This document shows, piece after piece, positions 40,794 through 48,336 of a DNA stretch of 64,000 nucleotides. The DNA comes from an uncultured euryarchaeote. GTDB lineage: Archaea; Thermoplasmatota; Poseidoniia; Poseidoniales; Poseidoniaceae. The notes beneath the pieces are model-generated. The model had not been told where the DNA came from. It saw only the letters and a program-made list of their open reading frames with translations, and did not search any database. The stretch's first letter is position 1, and every line of letters begins with the position of its first letter. The position numbers were made by a program, and so were the translations under genes. The stretch covers positions 1 through 64,000 of the forward strand of contig CALBIL010000030.1 in NCBI GenBank assembly GCA_937892945.1. The letters are read 5' to 3'.

Positions 40794-42575
40794 GTGACTG
40801 CAAAAGGCGAACTCTTGAACGAACTCTATCAAGCCCGTTTTGATGGACTCAAAGAACTCGCTGTCACCTACAACTTATCAAAAAGCGGTTCGGTTGAAGT
40901 GGTCAGAGGACGTCTGATTCAACAACTCATCTTAGATGAATGGGACCTTTCTCCAACTGGAATTAAGAATCTCATGAACGCTGAAATTGGCGAGATCCTG
41001 GGAGTTTTTGGCATTAAGAAATCAGGCTCAGTTCGTGCTCGCCGCCAACGCTTGTACCTCCACCTCAATCATGACCCGAAACAATTCGTTCCGGAATCAC
41101 TTGATGCTATGACCCGTGATGAATTGCATGAGTTGTGTAAGATATTGGAACTGCCTCTCTCCGGAAATAAGCAGGCTCTACTTGTCCGTATCGCAGGCGT
41201 GTTAGCCTATCAACAAGGAGGATGGGGGAAAGTCAAGAAGAGCCTCCGCCGCCCACGCAGTGGAGATTCTGCCATCGAAATCCCGTCCCCATCCCAGGAT
41301 TCTAAGAATGAATCTCCAGTTGAAACTCACATTGAGGAACAAGACGTCATTCTGGAAACAGTTGAAACGTTTGTATCTCAACATCCGAAAGGATGGACGT
41401 TTGAAGAAGAGACAGAAATGCGAACTGAACTTGCACAAGAAGGAATCCCAATCTCACGAGCACCTCTTGCAGCCTCAATAGATGATGCTCTTCGAGCTGG
41501 GCAAGAACAAATTGCAGATGATGAGACACCGGCAATGGTCCAAAGTGCACATGTAGCAGAGGTTGTTGAACACAGTCTCGAAATAGAAGCGGTTTTACTC
41601 GAATTATCAGCCCGGTCTGCAGAAATTGAATCAGCGGGTAGAGATTACTTAGCCGTAAGTAGCACAAGTGATGGCGAAGACCTTGAAGCATTCATTCATA
41701 GCCTCTCCCGCCATGGTTTTGCGGTAGAAATACCTGCAGTAAGTGACGGCATTCGCAATGCATTGATGGAACTTGAATTCAGATCACAAAACGAAAAGGA
41801 TGCAGTCTTAGCAATGCCGAATTCTTGGAGTGAACGTGAAGCACTACGGAATTTTGAAAACGCTCGAGATGTTTTGCGAGATCAATTGACGAATACACTC
41901 GCTACTTCGGACGGAGATCTAGTACGGGCACGGATGTCGTTTGAGCAAATTGGCCATGATATGGGCCTTGACTTGCGCATTCCAAGTATCTCTGGAAGAC
42001 TTCATGCACTTTTCGACTTACATGTTGAGATTCATCAGGCTGAAGCACTACAAGACCCGTCGATTGCACGACGAAATCGTATTCTCCGTGTTCTTCAACA
42101 CGGTGCAGTTCATCTTTCGGATGGAGAACGAATGACTGTTGACCGACTTGAGCGAAACATTACTGCCTTTGAGGAATTAGTCGAAACGGTTCTTGAATCA
42201 AGTGAAGGGAGTTTCTCAGACGCACAGCAAGCCTTAGTGATTCGATTCCTCGAATCAAGAGGCTATGAGGTCAACACCGTCGACTTACGGCCACGTGTTC
42301 TTGCGTGTGCTGGAATCATAGGCGCTGAATTAGGATTTATATCTCCTTCAGAAATTCCTCGAATCGCTCCAGGGATTATGGTGTCGGATACTCAAGTCGA
42401 TGCTATTGTGACAGAACTCAAGGCACTCGCTGAAGCATTCAAACCAAAAACAGAGGAACAACCCGATATCGAAATGGTCGTTGCTGAATCAGTCAGTGAT
42501 GCCTCGGAGCGAGTTAATGCAGCCCGAGGGAAAATCGATGCTATTGATGATTTACTCGCCCGTCTTCGTGGTTAA
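40794..42575 (+). CDS. Large protein with three N-terminal SAP-like motifs
   Basis: A 593-residue protein. The first 145 residues hold three helix-turn-helix units of the SAP type: LKELAVTYNLSKSGSVEVVRGRL, IGEILGVFGIKKSGSVRARRQRL (each starting with a conserved hydrophobic helix) and LHELCKILELPLSGNKQALLVRI. SAP motifs bind AT-rich DNA or RNA. The remaining 440 residues are helical, acidic and repetitive, with HGFAVEIP, DMGLDLRIP and RGYEVNTVD recurring at similar spacing, so a repeated unknown domain is likely. The start is GTG after GGTGAG. It is tail to tail with the pilus ATPase, 5 bp apart. Confidence 0.65.
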   Translation: MTAKGELLNELYQARFDGLKELAVTYNLSKSGSVEVVRGRLIQQLILDEWDLSPTGIKNLMNAEIGEILGVFGIKKSGSVRARRQRLYLHLNHDPKQFVPESLDAMTRDELHELCKILELPLSGNKQALLVRIAGVLAYQQGGWGKVKKSLRRPRSGDSAIEIPSPSQDSKNESPVETHIEEQDVILETVETFVSQHPKGWTFEEETEMRTELAQEGIPISRAPLAASIDDALRAGQEQIADDETPAMVQSAHVAEVVEHSLEIEAVLLELSARSAEIESAGRDYLAVSSTSDGEDLEAFIHSLSRHGFAVEIPAVSDGIRNALMELEFRSQNEKDAVLAMPNSWSEREALRNFENARDVLRDQLTNTLATSDGDLVRARMSFEQIGHDMGLDLRIPSISGRLHALFDLHVEIHQAEALQDPSIARRNRILRVLQHGAVHLSDGERMTVDRLERNITAFEELVETVLESSEGSFSDAQQALVIRFLESRGYEVNTVDLRPRVLACAGIIGAELGFISPSEIPRIAPGIMVSDTQVDAIVTELKALAEAFKPKTEEQPDIEMVVAESVSDASERVNAARGKIDAIDDLLARLRG

Positions 42576-42580
42576 TCCAC

Positions 42581-43819
42581 TTAACGGGATGCGTAGAAGT
42601 TTTGGATGACTTGTGTTACCGTTTGGATATCATGGATATCACGGTGTGCCAAATCTTCGAGAATCTTTTGACGTTGAGAGACATGTCTTTCAAACACATC
42701 TGGCGAGACACCAGCAGCTGCACAAATTATTTCACGAAGCTTGGAAGGAATTCCTGTTTCTTCAATTTGGTCGGTGGCGGCATTGTACTTCCAGATGATG
42801 TTGAGACGGGGTTTGTCGCCTTCCATACCTGCAATCTCTGCAACTTCAGTAATTTTACGAGCAGTTTTACCATTGACGTGAAGACGTGCTTGAATAATGA
42901 TTAAATCAAGTCCACTCAGCATAATCGGTGGGACGTTCATTGGTGGATTAATCATACGGGTTACTGTTTCTTGAGCCGTGTTGGCGTGCAGTGAACCGAA
43001 TGAACCATCGTGGCCAGTGTTCATGGCTGTAAGCAATGTCGCTGCTTCAGGTCCACGAACTTCTCCAACAATAATTCGGTCAGGTCGCATACGAAGACTT
43101 GACTTGAGGCAGTCATTCATATCGATTTCAGAGGTTCCATCTGGGCGTTCCCGTCGTGTCTCCATCCGAAGCCAGTGGTCGTGGTAGACTTGTAACTCAG
43201 CTGTATCTTCAACAGTCAATAAGCGTCGGTCCCATGGAATAAACATTCCAAGACAGTTGAGTGTTGTTGTTTTACCAGAACCTGTACCACCTGCAATAAC
43301 AAAGTTGGCAGGGCGGCTGTCAAGACCTTCAATCCAAACCCACATCATTGCTGCAAGGCGAGAATTAACAGTACCAAACTTCACCAAGTCAATCATGGTC
43401 AATGGGTCTTCACGGAATTTACGGATGGTGAGAGTAGGACCATCGGGGGTCACAGGAGGTATTGTGCCGTTGACACGGGAACCATCGGGGAGTCGTCCAT
43501 CAAAGATTGGTACAAGACCTGGACCATCTCCAAGTGGAACATTGGTAAACGCTGCGATATTCTTGGCGATTTGAATACCTGAATCATCATCGATCCAAAT
43601 GTTTGTCCGACACATTCCATGGTCACGATGTGCGATTTTTACACATTGTGTCCCGCCATTATACATCACTTCTTCAAGAGCATCATCTTCCAAAAGTACG
43701 GCAAGGTCGCCGTAGGGGTTTGGCTCAACTGCTCCATCAACATAGTAAATTGGAGACGGATGATTTGCTTCAGTATAGATTGTTACTCGGCCGTATTGTG
43801 CTAAAACTGTATCACTCAT
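42581..43819 (-). CDS. Type II/IV secretion ATPase, TadA/CpaF-like pilus motor
   Basis: A 412-residue hexameric secretion ATPase that powers pilus assembly. Walker A is GGTGSGKTT (177-185). The Asp box is TVEDTAELQV, Walker B is RIIVGEVRGPEA, and the His box is GSFGSLHANT. RVNGTIPPVTPDGPTLTIRKF is typical of CpaF/TadA. It starts 3 bp after the gene for the second membrane partner, as the last gene of a four-gene operon. Confidence 0.9.
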   Translation of the reverse strand: MSDTVLAQYGRVTIYTEANHPSPIYYVDGAVEPNPYGDLAVLLEDDALEEVMYNGGTQCVKIAHRDHGMCRTNIWIDDDSGIQIAKNIAAFTNVPLGDGPGLVPIFDGRLPDGSRVNGTIPPVTPDGPTLTIRKFREDPLTMIDLVKFGTVNSRLAAMMWVWIEGLDSRPANFVIAGGTGSGKTTTLNCLGMFIPWDRRLLTVEDTAELQVYHDHWLRMETRRERPDGTSEIDMNDCLKSSLRMRPDRIIVGEVRGPEAATLLTAMNTGHDGSFGSLHANTAQETVTRMINPPMNVPPIMLSGLDLIIIQARLHVNGKTARKITEVAEIAGMEGDKPRLNIIWKYNAATDQIEETGIPSKLREIICAAAGVSPDVFERHVSQRQKILEDLAHRDIHDIQTVTQVIQNFYASR

Positions 43820-43822
43820 ATT

Positions 43823-44554
43823 TCATCCTCCAATCATTATGACTGCCCCAAGATAGAGACTCATCGAAAGTGCAATCCACCCTGGCATCCACCAAAGAGC
43901 ATCTTTGAATCGACCGAGCATTCGGCCTGAAACTCCAATCGCAATTGCGGATGCTGCTCCAAAGAAAAGGGAAAACGTAGTGTTGAAAGAATCGATCTGA
44001 AAACCCTTACTCGCTGGCGCAAATAATCCAACGATGAAGGCGATAAGAATTGGCAGACCAATACTGATGAAGAGAACAATGAGTATTCCTTTACCCAGCA
44101 ATTCTTCCTCACGCTTGTTCATTAAATCATTCAAGCGTTCATAATCCATTGCTAAATCAGAAAGTATCCCTTGGAGGGGTGAATCTTGTTCAATTGCAGT
44201 CTCGATTAACACCATGACCCGTTGAACTTGCGATGAACGAGTCTTTGCAGAAAAGGCTGCTAGTGCAGCATCAAATGAAGATGAGTGGCTTTCTTCGAGT
44301 GTTTCTTTTAGCAACTTCCCGAGCAGCCCAGGAAGCGTTCTGGATTGTTCCATCATCGCTTCTTGGATACCACGACCTGCACCAACAGAGTCTGAAAGTG
44401 ATTCGAGTAAAGAGGGAAGTGCGTTCTCTATAGAACGGCGTCTATTGCGCTCTAACATTGGAGGAATTCCACCAGCAGCACTGGCGATTCCAAAGACAAC
44501 AAGCACCAAAAGCAAGAGATTATCGTTGAATGTTTCAATGAGTCCGAAAATCAT
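43823..44554 (-). CDS. TadC-like pilus platform membrane protein
   Basis: A 243-residue membrane protein with one N-terminal helix (about 10-28), a cytoplasmic helical type II secretion F-like segment (SLSDSVGAGRGIQEAM, RVMVLIETAIEQDSPL) and three C-terminal helices (about 155-178, 190-210 and 220-242). It would form the platform for the ATPase together with the upstream protein. Spacing is 4 bp on one side and 3 bp on the other. Confidence 0.75.
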   Translation of the reverse strand: MIFGLIETFNDNLLLLVLVVFGIASAAGGIPPMLERNRRRSIENALPSLLESLSDSVGAGRGIQEAMMEQSRTLPGLLGKLLKETLEESHSSSFDAALAAFSAKTRSSQVQRVMVLIETAIEQDSPLQGILSDLAMDYERLNDLMNKREEELLGKGILIVLFISIGLPILIAFIVGLFAPASKGFQIDSFNTTFSLFFGAASAIAIGVSGRMLGRFKDALWWMPGWIALSMSLYLGAVIMIGG

Positions 44555-44558
44555 TAAA

Positions 44559-45140
44559 TCACAACCCCGGGTCCTTTGTATGGGCTTTCAAGCCAATCAT
44601 GAACATTCCAAATAAGGTCAAAGCGAGTCCTGCATTGACTACGAGATTGATGGTAGATGCAGGCGGTAGTTGCATGAAAGCACCCAAGTCACCACTCATC
44701 AATTGTGGCACGAGTCCGGCTATGGCTAAGATAATCGGACCAATCATACCAATGGAAAGAAGAGTTTCAGGCACTGAACCAAGTTCTTCGATGTATTTCT
44801 TTACCGACTCCGTACGTTCATTTTCCATACGTACGCCTTGCTTGCGAATGGTTTCAATGATGTCCGTGTTTTGTGTGACGTTGGTATACATTGTATTGAG
44901 AAGACGGCGATATCCTTCAGAATCTGCCTTGCCCATCATACTCTTCAATTCTGGTCCAAGTCCACGGCTGCTTCCTTTACGCAAACGGTTCATCATGCCC
45001 GAGAAATCTTCTGAGATGATCCCGTAACCACCGCTACCAATGGTGTGAATTGCAGCTTCTAGACCAACGCCTGAAGACATTAATACATCCAATGTTCGGA
45101 TGACATAGAGAACTTCTCTCTGCTCATCCAATTTACGCAT
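44559..45140 (-). CDS. TadB-like pilus platform membrane protein
   Basis: A 193-residue protein. The N-terminal cytoplasmic helical domain (VLYVIRTLDVLMSSGVGLEAAIHTI) matches the T2SSF domain of TadB/FlaJ proteins, followed by two transmembrane helices (about 127-148 and 164-184). The single-chain FlaJ of archaella corresponds to this and the next protein, so the platform is split as in Tad systems. It begins 9 bp after the small upstream gene. Confidence 0.7.
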   Translation of the reverse strand: MRKLDEQREVLYVIRTLDVLMSSGVGLEAAIHTIGSGGYGIISEDFSGMMNRLRKGSSRGLGPELKSMMGKADSEGYRRLLNTMYTNVTQNTDIIETIRKQGVRMENERTESVKKYIEELGSVPETLLSIGMIGPIILAIAGLVPQLMSGDLGAFMQLPPASTINLVVNAGLALTLFGMFMIGLKAHTKDPGL

Positions 45141-45149
45141 AATCTCACC

Positions 45150-45503
45150 TCAAACAATATCTTCGAGTAATTCAAATTTGAACATTTCATTCGCACCATC
45201 ATATTCCATCGAAGCAAAGATTACTTTGACATCTCGTTCTTCAAATGGGTCATGAATGAAAGGTTGCCCGGAGCGGAACATAGTCAAAACTCGCTTGTAA
45301 TCATCAAGCGTGATTTCTCCTGTAACGGTGTAAGCGGCTGATTCAGAGCCTTCGTCGTGCAAATCATCGCCTTCTTCACCACGAATAATTGTACGTGTGA
45401 GGCGACGAGTGAGGCGAACTTTCATGTCACAATTTGGAATACGAACCCAATCTGCACTCGTTGTTCCTGATGCGGGGCGAATAAAGAAATCCATGCCAGC
45501 CAT
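45150..45503 (-). CDS. Small beta-rich protein at the head of the pilus operon
   Basis: A 117-residue protein, not confidently assigned. No signal peptide or membrane helix. TRTIIRGEEGDDLHDEG..YTVTGEITLDDYKRVLTMF, then FIHDPF and VKVIFASMEYDGANEMFKFELLED reads like the N-terminal domain of phage tail DNA-circularisation / baseplate-hub adaptors, in which an HP-containing loop and a final aromatic-Leu-Glu strand are conserved. This is resemblance by eye only. It lies 9 bp before the TadB-like gene, so it may be a scaffold or base component of the pilus. Confidence 0.55.
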   Translation of the reverse strand: MAGMDFFIRPASGTTSADWVRIPNCDMKVRLTRRLTRTIIRGEEGDDLHDEGSESAAYTVTGEITLDDYKRVLTMFRSGQPFIHDPFEERDVKVIFASMEYDGANEMFKFELLEDIV

Positions 45504-45563
45504 ATGTCAACCTCTAATTTAACCACGCAGTGGTAAGGACTTCAATGTTGGGGATGGAAATCA

Positions 45564-46502
45564 TCACGCCACGATTCTAAACCAACCAAATCTTGGTTCG
45601 TGAAGAGTTCCTTCATTTGAAAGTTCATCGAGTTTTTCTTCTGCGAGTGTTCGATCAAAACCACGTGCAACTGTATTGGTGAGCACTGTCTCAAAATCAA
45701 CACCATCACCTTGGTCAAGTTGTTCGATGATTGATACGATTGTGTCCTTCACTTCGGTTTCGCCACCTGCGGCAGCATCCCCGCCATCCTCGTCTCCATC
45801 AGCACTTGGAACAGGTGCCGCAACAGGCTGACTGGCAGCCTCCATGCGACCTTCAGCAATATCCAAAGCTTGCATGATATTGAGTGTGTAATTTTCAATC
45901 TCAATGTCTCCGTAATGATTACGAGCAACAAGAAGTCCATCGATCATATGTTCTGGAATACCTGCAGCAACCAAGCCTTCTCGAGATGGTTCAGCAGATA
46001 ATGAATCTGTGAAATGCTTCATTCGTTGAAGTGTGTCCTCACATGTCCGAGTCAACCAAAGAGCATACTGTTGTGCATCAATTTCACAGGCTTCTTCGGG
46101 ACGAAGTGAGGTATAAATCGCTCCTTCGTCGGTTTGATACCATTTTGATTTGGCAACCATGAGAAGAAGGACTGGCTCACCTGCTTCGATTTTGTTCGAC
46201 AAAGTCAAGGTAAGTTCACGCATCGATTCACTTGCATAATCTCCAACAGAGAAGTAATGAACACCTGACGGGTCACGCATCTGTCCTTGATAGAGCGATG
46301 AACCATTGGAAGTTTCTCGAACCTCGAGTCGTTCCAAAAGCCCTGCTACGACGACTCGGTTGACTTTTGCACCAAGTTTCGTAATTACAAAGGAAGGATC
46401 GTATTCGCCCGAGCCTTTCTCATTGAGTGTAGCCTCACTAAATTCAGAGGCAAGTATGTGCCAAGCCGGTTGACGCTTTGCCCGTGTAGTTCCAGCTTGC
46501 AT
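45564..46502 (-). CDS. RPA-associated protein, COG3390 type
   Basis: A 312-residue partner of archaeal RPA. The N-terminal OB-fold region (ITKLGAKVNRVVVAGLLERLE) is followed by a helical segment, an acidic low-complexity stretch (DGDEDGGDAAAGG) and a C-terminal winged-helix-like domain (about 245-312). Its ATG overlaps the RPA stop by one base (TAATG), so translation is coupled. In haloarchaea such pairs act together in single-strand DNA binding. Confidence 0.8.
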   Translation of the reverse strand: MQAGTTRAKRQPAWHILASEFSEATLNEKGSGEYDPSFVITKLGAKVNRVVVAGLLERLEVRETSNGSSLYQGQMRDPSGVHYFSVGDYASESMRELTLTLSNKIEAGEPVLLLMVAKSKWYQTDEGAIYTSLRPEEACEIDAQQYALWLTRTCEDTLQRMKHFTDSLSAEPSREGLVAAGIPEHMIDGLLVARNHYGDIEIENYTLNIMQALDIAEGRMEAASQPVAAPVPSADGDEDGGDAAAGGETEVKDTIVSIIEQLDQGDGVDFETVLTNTVARGFDRTLAEEKLDELSNEGTLHEPRFGWFRIVA

Positions 46503-48199
46503 TAAGCAACCCTCCATTGAGCACGTATTTCAGTCGCCCGTAAACCGGCATCTTCCTCGACCATGGATGCTCCATCTGCAAGTAGCATGGCACCTTGTTC
46601 GTCGACGATACTACGGCCTGAAGCGTTCATTTTACGTCCGAGCATCTTTCCACGCAAGGATTGAACGAAAGCAACTTGTCCAACATCATCAATCGCACCT
46701 TGAAGTTCCGGTTCGGTCATTCCAAGAAGGCTCAATGTTGCCTCTTTGTTGGTCAACACGGATACGCTGGAAAGACCATTATCAATTGCTAAACGCAATC
46801 TCACGTCACTGTTGCCATCATTTGGACCATGGTCAGCACACACGCCTTCCCGGAGTACTCGTCGGCATTCCGTGCAACGTTGAATAAAACCAGAATCTTC
46901 TCGGACACTGACCACAATGGCACTGGTCGAGATTCCTACTCGACTTGCACCTGTAGAGAGTTCATGAAGAGCAACCTCAACAGTATGGTTTTTCAAATCC
47001 AATTCGCTGTCCCAAGGTGGGGCATCGAGTATTTCGACTTGGTCCGCATTATCAACAGTAATATCTGGTATTCCTTGCCAAGCACGAACTCGTACGCCTT
47101 TGAGGCGTACTGTCAACGGCAATTGGTCTTCAGTAATAGGAAGTTCATTCCATGCACTCATACGGCAACGACCGGTTGGATCGGCGATTTGACCAGACCA
47201 GAGGAAGCGTTCTTCACCATCCTTGGTAAACGTGCGTTTTGCCCATTCAGTGATCTGAACGATTGCATCGACATCTTTGGCTCCATCTCGAAGTTCTGAG
47301 AGAGTGAGCACTGTTTGTTCCGAGAGTGCATCAACATCAGCAAAATTCTTGTCGTGATAAACTTCGATTTTGGTTGTTCGTCCGAAATTGAGTTCAGGAG
47401 TATCTCTGAACGTTCGGACTTGTGCACCTTCAATTTTGAGAAGCGTTCCTACTTCGTGACCAAGTGGTTCCCATGAAAGGAAGCCAATCGTACCTGTTTC
47501 ATCAGCCAAACGGCCCCGTATGATATCAATCGAGCCGGAACCATCCTTACGGTGAATCTGGTCTGCGCGTGTGGTAAGAATTCGTCCAACAACACAGACA
47601 TAGCCATCAGAGGGCAAAGTCGAGATGTCTTGTGGCTCGCCTGGTGCCACTACAGGACCAGTACCTTCACGAATCACAGCGATACGTGTCGATTGATTGA
47701 TGTTAAGAGACATCTTTCCTTGGTATTCGTTGACCGATGCACCTTCAATTCGAACAACAGATCCGGGGGTAATGTTGGAGTTTGGACCCCAGTCTTTGAA
47801 CTCCCAACGAGTTTTCTCACCATTTTCTTCCCAAGGGTTATCTTCGAGAAGACCGAAAGCGATTTGCTTTTCTTCACCTCGAATCGTTTGGTTACGAATG
47901 TTATGGGAAATAATTTCAACTTCGATTTCGATTTCTCGGTCATCGCCTTTCAGTTCGCTTAATCGGCTTACTTTACGGGTTGACTTTGGTGCCGCTGAAG
48001 ATGAAGTGCCCGGAGTGTTTGCGGACGGCGTGGGTGTCGTTTCACCTTTGAAGCGTCGAAGAATCGAACGCATAGCATCTTGAGGTGGAATGAAAAATTC
48101 GGTTTCATATTTTGCAAAAGCTGCAGAAACGGCTTCAGGGTCAGCATCAGGGCATTCGGCAAGAATCGACTTGACGTGGGTTTCGTATTTTTCAGACAT
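46502..48199 (-). CDS. rpa: Replication protein A, multi-OB single-strand DNA-binding protein
   Basis: A 565-residue RPA with a helical N-terminal segment (1-50), a Pro/Ser/Thr-rich linker, three or more OB folds in series (about 75-190, 195-300 and 310-410), a zinc finger C-x2-C...C-x2-HG (CTECRRVLREGVCADHG, about 440-456) and a further C-terminal OB-like domain. It coats single-stranded DNA during replication and repair. ATG 48199 has GGAGGT at good spacing; the frame stays open to 48331 but runs through the promoter. Confidence 0.9.
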   Translation of the reverse strand: MSEKYETHVKSILAECPDADPEAVSAAFAKYETEFFIPPQDAMRSILRRFKGETTPTPSANTPGTSSSAAPKSTRKVSRLSELKGDDREIEIEVEIISHNIRNQTIRGEEKQIAFGLLEDNPWEENGEKTRWEFKDWGPNSNITPGSVVRIEGASVNEYQGKMSLNINQSTRIAVIREGTGPVVAPGEPQDISTLPSDGYVCVVGRILTTRADQIHRKDGSGSIDIIRGRLADETGTIGFLSWEPLGHEVGTLLKIEGAQVRTFRDTPELNFGRTTKIEVYHDKNFADVDALSEQTVLTLSELRDGAKDVDAIVQITEWAKRTFTKDGEERFLWSGQIADPTGRCRMSAWNELPITEDQLPLTVRLKGVRVRAWQGIPDITVDNADQVEILDAPPWDSELDLKNHTVEVALHELSTGASRVGISTSAIVVSVREDSGFIQRCTECRRVLREGVCADHGPNDGNSDVRLRLAIDNGLSSVSVLTNKEATLSLLGMTEPELQGAIDDVGQVAFVQSLRGKMLGRKMNASGRSIVDEQGAMLLADGASMVEEDAGLRATEIRAQWRVA

Positions 48200-48336
48200 T
48201 GCAATGACCTCCGCCAGGCGTGTTCGTTCGGGGCCTGTACGGAGAACAGGCTGCGGGCTTTCGTGCGGGTTGGTTGAGACTGTACACTCCCTTGACCTCC
48301 ATGGATAACTACAGGGGAGACGACAGGCCATAAAGA
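48192..48336 (-). promoter_or_regulatory. RPA promoter and leaderless upstream ORF overlapping the RPA start
   Basis: A TATA-like TCTTTATGG (48328-48336) sits about 29 nt before an ATG at 48302, the spacing for a leaderless transcript. That ATG opens a 36-codon ORF (MEVKGVYSLNQPARKPAAC onward) that ends in a TGA at 48192-48194, inside the RPA start (ATGTCTGA overlap). Translation of this ORF would deliver ribosomes to the RPA start. Confidence 0.4.

Follow-up and report, generated by a model that had tools for sequence, protein, structure and literature searches.

Among the nanomachines of the cell surface, type IV filaments and phage-tail machines each make up a large class. In a 64,000-nucleotide stretch of DNA from an uncultured euryarchaeote (contig CALBIL010000030.1 of assembly GCA_937892945.1, positions 1 to 64,000; hereafter, "the window"), a small gene that we call P117 raises the question of whether a part of the second class has been taken into a machine of the first. 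P117 stands at the head of Tad-like platform and ATPase genes, and an earlier note, made from the letters of this DNA, had likened its product to a phage-tail protein. The machine, being Tad-like, is of a known kind; the tail-fold component is new to it, and in the literature searched, most subscription journals lying outside its scope, we found no type IV filament system described as having a part with the tail-tube fold. Our analysis suggests that a tail-type part, putatively a ring, was recruited into a pilus machine.

We began from the gene as the earlier note had described it. The interval given there for a 117-residue product is right, the strand, which was left unnamed, is minus (Table 1), and the motifs singled out in the product (GE.TLDDY, HDPF and FELLED) are all present in the translation. 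The open reading frame (ORF) runs from an ATG start to a TGA stop, which is separated by 9 bp from the ATG of the TadB-like gene at 45140; the ribosome-binding sequence of the latter, GAGGTGA, overlaps the P117 stop codon. This spacing, together with Pfam matches to T2SSF, T2SSF and T2SSE in the three genes that follow, agrees with the placement of P117 9 bp before TadB/TadC/TadA-like genes. Relatives in which P117 is 96% identical are Candidatus Poseidoniaceae (Marine Group II). P117 is under strong purifying selection, with dN of 0.02-0.16 versus dS of 0.4 to above 2 (dN/dS about 0.05). Because orthologues are found in two families of Poseidoniales, dN is low relative to dS, and positions 33-55 are nearly invariant, the ORF is a genuine gene and more than a chance reading frame.

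Table 1. Features of the P117 locus, in coordinates of the window
Feature	Position	Strand	Description
RPA609	46502..48331	minus	609-aa RPA-like ssDNA-binding protein; upstream of RPA317
RPA317	45564..46517	minus	317-aa protein of the RPA gene pair; upstream of P117
Conserved non-coding element	45535..45552	minus	CCCAACATTGAAGTCCTT (CCAACA..TTSAAGTCC); upstream of P117
P117	45150..45503	minus	117-aa tail-tube-fold protein heading the Tad-like unit; lacks transmembrane and signal segments
Hairpin of P117	45339..45407	minus	codons 33-55, beta2-beta3; most conserved region
TadB-like platform protein	44559..45140	minus	193 aa; one T2SSF domain (E 5e-8); two TM-like segments
TadC-like platform protein	43823..44554	minus	243 aa; one T2SSF domain (E 4e-8); TM-like segments
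Motor ATPase	42581..43819	minus	412 aa; CpaF/TadA/FlaI-like, hexameric-type; T2SSE E 7.5e-42

Reading along the minus strand, the genes come in the order RPA609, RPA317, P117, the two T2SSF genes and the T2SSE ATPase. The ATPase is of the CpaF/TadA type within T2SSE, and its matches among PDB sequences include the archaeal T2SSE protein 2oap (E 5e-66) and CpaF (E 2e-63). Tad and archaeal Epd-like systems are described as having two contiguous genes with a single T2SSF domain each, followed by an ATPase (PMC6668835), and we find this arrangement at the P117 locus. Compared with those systems, however, the locus has an extra tail-fold gene at its head, its platform proteins are short, and no pilin, prepilin peptidase, TadZ or FlaH was recognised among the neighbouring genes scanned with Pfam. 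For these functions the module may draw on the archaellum locus and a second pilus locus of the same genome, which encodes four T2SSE ATPases: one in the archaellum locus, one in a second pilus-type locus, a shorter PilT-like protein with no platform genes beside it, and that of the P117 module (assignments made by reading the neighbouring genes). We therefore refer to a putative pilus, a designation drawn from the motor and platform genes only. Work on North Sea metagenome-assembled genomes reported additional flaI and tadC genes in MGIIa, and a P117-type gene goes unmentioned in the portion of that work consulted (PMC6864105). Adjoining the ATPase in the opposite orientation is a gene for a 593-aa SAP-domain protein (40794-42575, plus strand), which is conserved across both families.

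The resemblance to phage tails can be examined on a structural model. The AlphaFold2 model of P117, built on an alignment of 40 homologues, has a mean pLDDT of 90.6 and consists of strands at residues 4-9, 20-39 and 46-63, a helix at 66-78, and strands at 82-85, 90-102 and 107-114. This order (E-E-E-H-E-E-E, or b1-b2-b3, helix, b4-b5-b6) is the topology of the tail-tube fold; the minimal major tail protein is described as a beta-sandwich with a flanking helix and a beta2-beta3 loop that reaches onto the next ring (PMC8718954). When the model was compared with the PDB, all 50 listed matches were parts of phage tails, tailocins, gene-transfer agents (GTA) or contractile systems, 20 of them at E <0.001, with TM-scores mostly of 0.5-0.7. 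They include a diffocin baseplate chain (8v3w_T, 3.8e-5), the monocin tail tube, the GTA tail tube, Hcp1, a lambda tail-tip chain of 109 aa (8iyk_E; TMt 0.67, rmsd 2.7) and a Mu baseplate chain (9ki1_0, E 3.9e-4), which a sequence search identified as the phage Mu "DNA circularization protein N" (gp43). Among the viral models of BFVD, the best matches were likewise phage tail-type proteins, namely DUF6046 phage proteins and TP901-1-type tail proteins, with a "DNA circulation, N-terminal" protein as match 5. A distant homologue (26% identical), which comes from another family of the phylum and was modelled separately on an alignment that overlaps that of P117, gave the same element order at a pLDDT of 88.7, and its best three fold matches were Mu gp43 and baseplate chains of phage Milano. 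The model thus shows P117 with a minimal phage tail-tube fold, and the likeness to the N-terminal domain of phage tail DNA-circularisation/baseplate proteins, which the earlier note had seen by eye, proves right at the level of fold, the search for a structural match to tail proteins having returned one in both the PDB and BFVD.

Beyond the order of strands and helix, which is common to P117 and to the tube and tube-initiator proteins (the GTA tube, monocin, diffocin, lambda 8iyk_E, Hcp and Mu gp43), the lambda tail-tip chain and the GTA tube protein are also close to P117 in their single-domain size. Mu gp43, whose N-terminal domain is PF07157, differs in that it continues into a LysM/helical C-terminal part, whereas P117 ends after the domain, at 117 aa. 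In contrast to the tail-tube proteins, P117 is encoded beside a pilus motor instead of a tail, in a genome without sheath or gp25 domains (PF04984, PF04965). For the same reason, a contractile injection system in the source genome was rejected.

The highest hydropathy over 19 residues is 0.23, and P117 has neither a signal nor an N-terminal pilin-type helix; judged from its sequence, the protein is soluble, and its location is presumably the cytoplasm. These properties bear on the idea of a hybrid between tail tube and pilus, in which P117 would polymerise and the resulting tube or filament would be exported by the machine or form a core for it to build around. Such a polymer would fit the tail-tube fold, whose hairpin is suited to stacking, but the protein lacks any signal or pilin-type helix for export and the genome lacks the sheath and gp25 genes, and we regard this outcome as highly improbable.

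At the level of sequence, the relation to phages is much fainter. Searched by sequence, P117 had no match above noise in the PDB, Pfam, NCBIfam, PHROGs, phage records or viral contigs, and it appears to represent an undescribed protein family, matching no Pfam, NCBIfam or PHROGs entry. The DNA_circ_N profile (PF07157) matched neither P117 nor any of 40 members at the curated cut-off, and none was found in the genome. Aligning the P117 profile to 13 phage DNA_circ_N domains with hhalign gave P 0.003 in the correct register, a borderline outcome in that 1 of 300 column shuffles scored higher (rank 2 of 301). The close relatives of Mu gp43 and P2 gpU in viral contigs were too alike among themselves for profile building. 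As sequence profiles do not reach the phage families, descent of P117 from a phage tail, which the modelled fold makes likely, is unproven at the sequence level. An RxxxR motif had raised the possibility of a PilZ protein; this identity was dropped, as there was no Pfam PilZ match and the fold search gave tail proteins only.

We next asked whether P117 keeps its place beside the motor genes in relatives. Among 146 genomes of Poseidoniales, 88 carry an orthologue of the ATPase, and in 80 of these P117 lies within 2.6 kb of it on the same contig. The other eight are explained by contig ends: in six, P117 is on another contig and the block is split by contig breaks, and in two, P117 is absent and the contig breaks off inside the ATPase gene or shortly upstream of it. 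In the loci that we fetched, the block P117-T2SSF-T2SSF-ATPase is found in both families, unless the contig ends first. P117 adjoins the ATPase module in every Poseidoniales genome in which the contig allows this to be checked. Co-occurrence with the pilus operon in relatives, on which the earlier note had staked its case, is thus borne out. Its claim of a tail-like element in a pilus operon is supported at the level of fold and linkage.

Such strict linkage has to be set against the view that P117 was left behind by an injection system or by a tailed archaeal virus that had integrated, and was kept for some other use (e.g., as a viral decoy), with its place in the operon incidental. The tail fold, the existence of lone paralogues and a tail-sheath gene on a short contig in one genome of the order would all suit a remnant. 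However, no viral contig or phage record related to P117 was found, the genome has no sheath or gp25, and the gene is held in place over two families at a dN/dS that speaks for sustained constraint, which leaves this view with very little probability.

The region ahead of P117 helps to define which genes it belongs with. The ATTSAA core of the upstream element lies 41-45 bp ahead of the P117 start codon in 105 of 105 orthologues, and several further positions of the element are invariant across 77 distinct genes in which third codon positions agree at 59% on average; its 17-mer has one exact copy in the genome. The element may be a promoter or operator of the P117 module. A scan for sigma-70 sites and terminators returned about as many as shuffled sequences did, the sigma-70 model being not applicable to archaea. 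According to gaps estimated from the fetched loci, the distance from P117 to TadB stays at 7-28 bp, and that from RPA317 to P117 ranges from about 54 to 374 bp. With a conserved element inside the latter gap, P117 appears to open a transcription unit of its own, and as that gap varies between genomes, the RPA pair is probably a separate unit.

In both families of the order, RPA609 and RPA317 lie ahead of P117, which could mean that P117 serves these genes in ssDNA handling, binding DNA or RPA in the manner of the DNA-circularising Mu gp43, and that the motor module is either a passenger downstream or a DNA-uptake machine. We consider this improbable: the wide and variable gap with its promoter-like element contrasts with the tight spacing to TadB, P117 is acidic (23 D/E, 14 K/R), and the reported DNA-circularising activity is that of full-length Mu gp43 rather than of the tube domain.

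Relatives of the platform and ATPase genes outside the order indicate when P117 joined them. We identified five such loci in a neighbouring family of the same class and three in three other families of the phylum; all eight have recognisable ATPase and TadC-like genes, and six have one that is TadB-like. No P117-like protein is encoded near any of these loci, nor did a profile search find one in their genomes. Since related loci outside the order carry the module genes without P117, P117 is a later arrival in an older three-gene module, acquired within Poseidoniales; and since the module is present without it in other lineages, P117 is not essential to this type of motor. Tandem Tad-like platform and ATPase genes without recognised pilins nearby are what these other genomes of the phylum carry, most of the loci with all three genes, and no description of their function was found in the searchable literature.

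The family also has members away from the pilus genes. Four distant homologues elsewhere in the phylum and paralogues within Poseidoniales have no stable partner, and some genomes without the module carry only an unlinked paralogue. The P117 tree separates these groups, with the pilus-linked copies of the second family near the base at moderate support. The existence of unlinked paralogues means that the tail fold of the P117 family is not confined to pili. A second set of tail-fold paralogues comprises lone genes with no stable neighbour and with the hairpin kept. Two distant homologues in another family of the phylum (L071, 6964-7305; L072, 6005-6325) both lie beside a long gene for a secreted-type subtilase.

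Conservation within P117 is concentrated in the beta2-beta3 hairpin: of the 19 positions that are invariant or nearly so in an alignment of 40 homologues, 12 fall there (R33, R34, R37, G42, E44, G45, D46, L48, D50, G52, E54 and S55). Because the lone paralogues away from pilus genes share this hairpin, it is not specific to a pilus role. In tail tubes, the same hairpin makes the ring-to-ring contact, and it is therefore a likely surface for self-assembly or docking in P117, where its tip loop is short relative to that of stacking tube proteins.

What P117 does at the motor can be framed from these observations. In tails, the tail-tube fold nearly always builds rings, and relatives of the CpaF-like motor ATPase are hexamers. 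We propose that P117, a soluble and presumably cytoplasmic protein made together with the Tad-like motor, would form a ring, probably a hexamer as in its tail counterparts, which would dock coaxially on the hexameric CpaF-like ATPase or on the platform and act as an adaptor or collar added to the older module. The chances of this proposal fall just short of even. Its more specific form, in which a hexameric collar of tail-tube type on the CpaF-like ATPase is a recruited phage-tail ring and the tail and type IV filament lineages of machines would have merged directly, is a tentative one that we would lean somewhat against. The ring, its hexameric state, its contacts and any effect on the filament are what we infer here. 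Two known assemblies offer precedents: the tube-like domains of Mu gp43 form a hexameric 24-stranded barrel (PMC11915804), and in the Tad machine of Caulobacter six CpaE dimers make a cytoplasmic ring around the CpaF hexamer (PMC13170226). P117 may sit where the CpaE/TadZ dimers do in bacterial Tad machines, as a cytoplasmic ring on a hexameric motor; this is an analogy only, as CpaE is a ParA/MinD-type ATPase whose fold is unrelated to that of P117.

The main competitor to the ring is a small protein that assists the Tad-like module as an adaptor or chaperone, binds one partner as a monomer or dimer, and has no more than the beta-sandwich topology in common with tail proteins. Lone paralogues without a stable neighbour are as expected of a general binding domain, and the short tip loop and the weak sequence link to phage families point the same way. 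However, the fold search matched ring-forming tail parts specifically and not beta-sandwiches in general, and conservation peaks in the very hairpin that makes ring contacts; we consider such an adaptor rather unlikely. If P117 does form a ring on the motor, a tail part would be re-usable in an unrelated machine, and the Marine Group II archaea, abundant in the surface ocean, would have a defined, testable component in a third type IV filament system.

Finally, a genome of the second family contains a 743-aa ORF with a phage tail-sheath domain (genome G001, contig C10, 1087-1608), carried on a 3.3-kb contig that may derive from a provirus or a contractile system.
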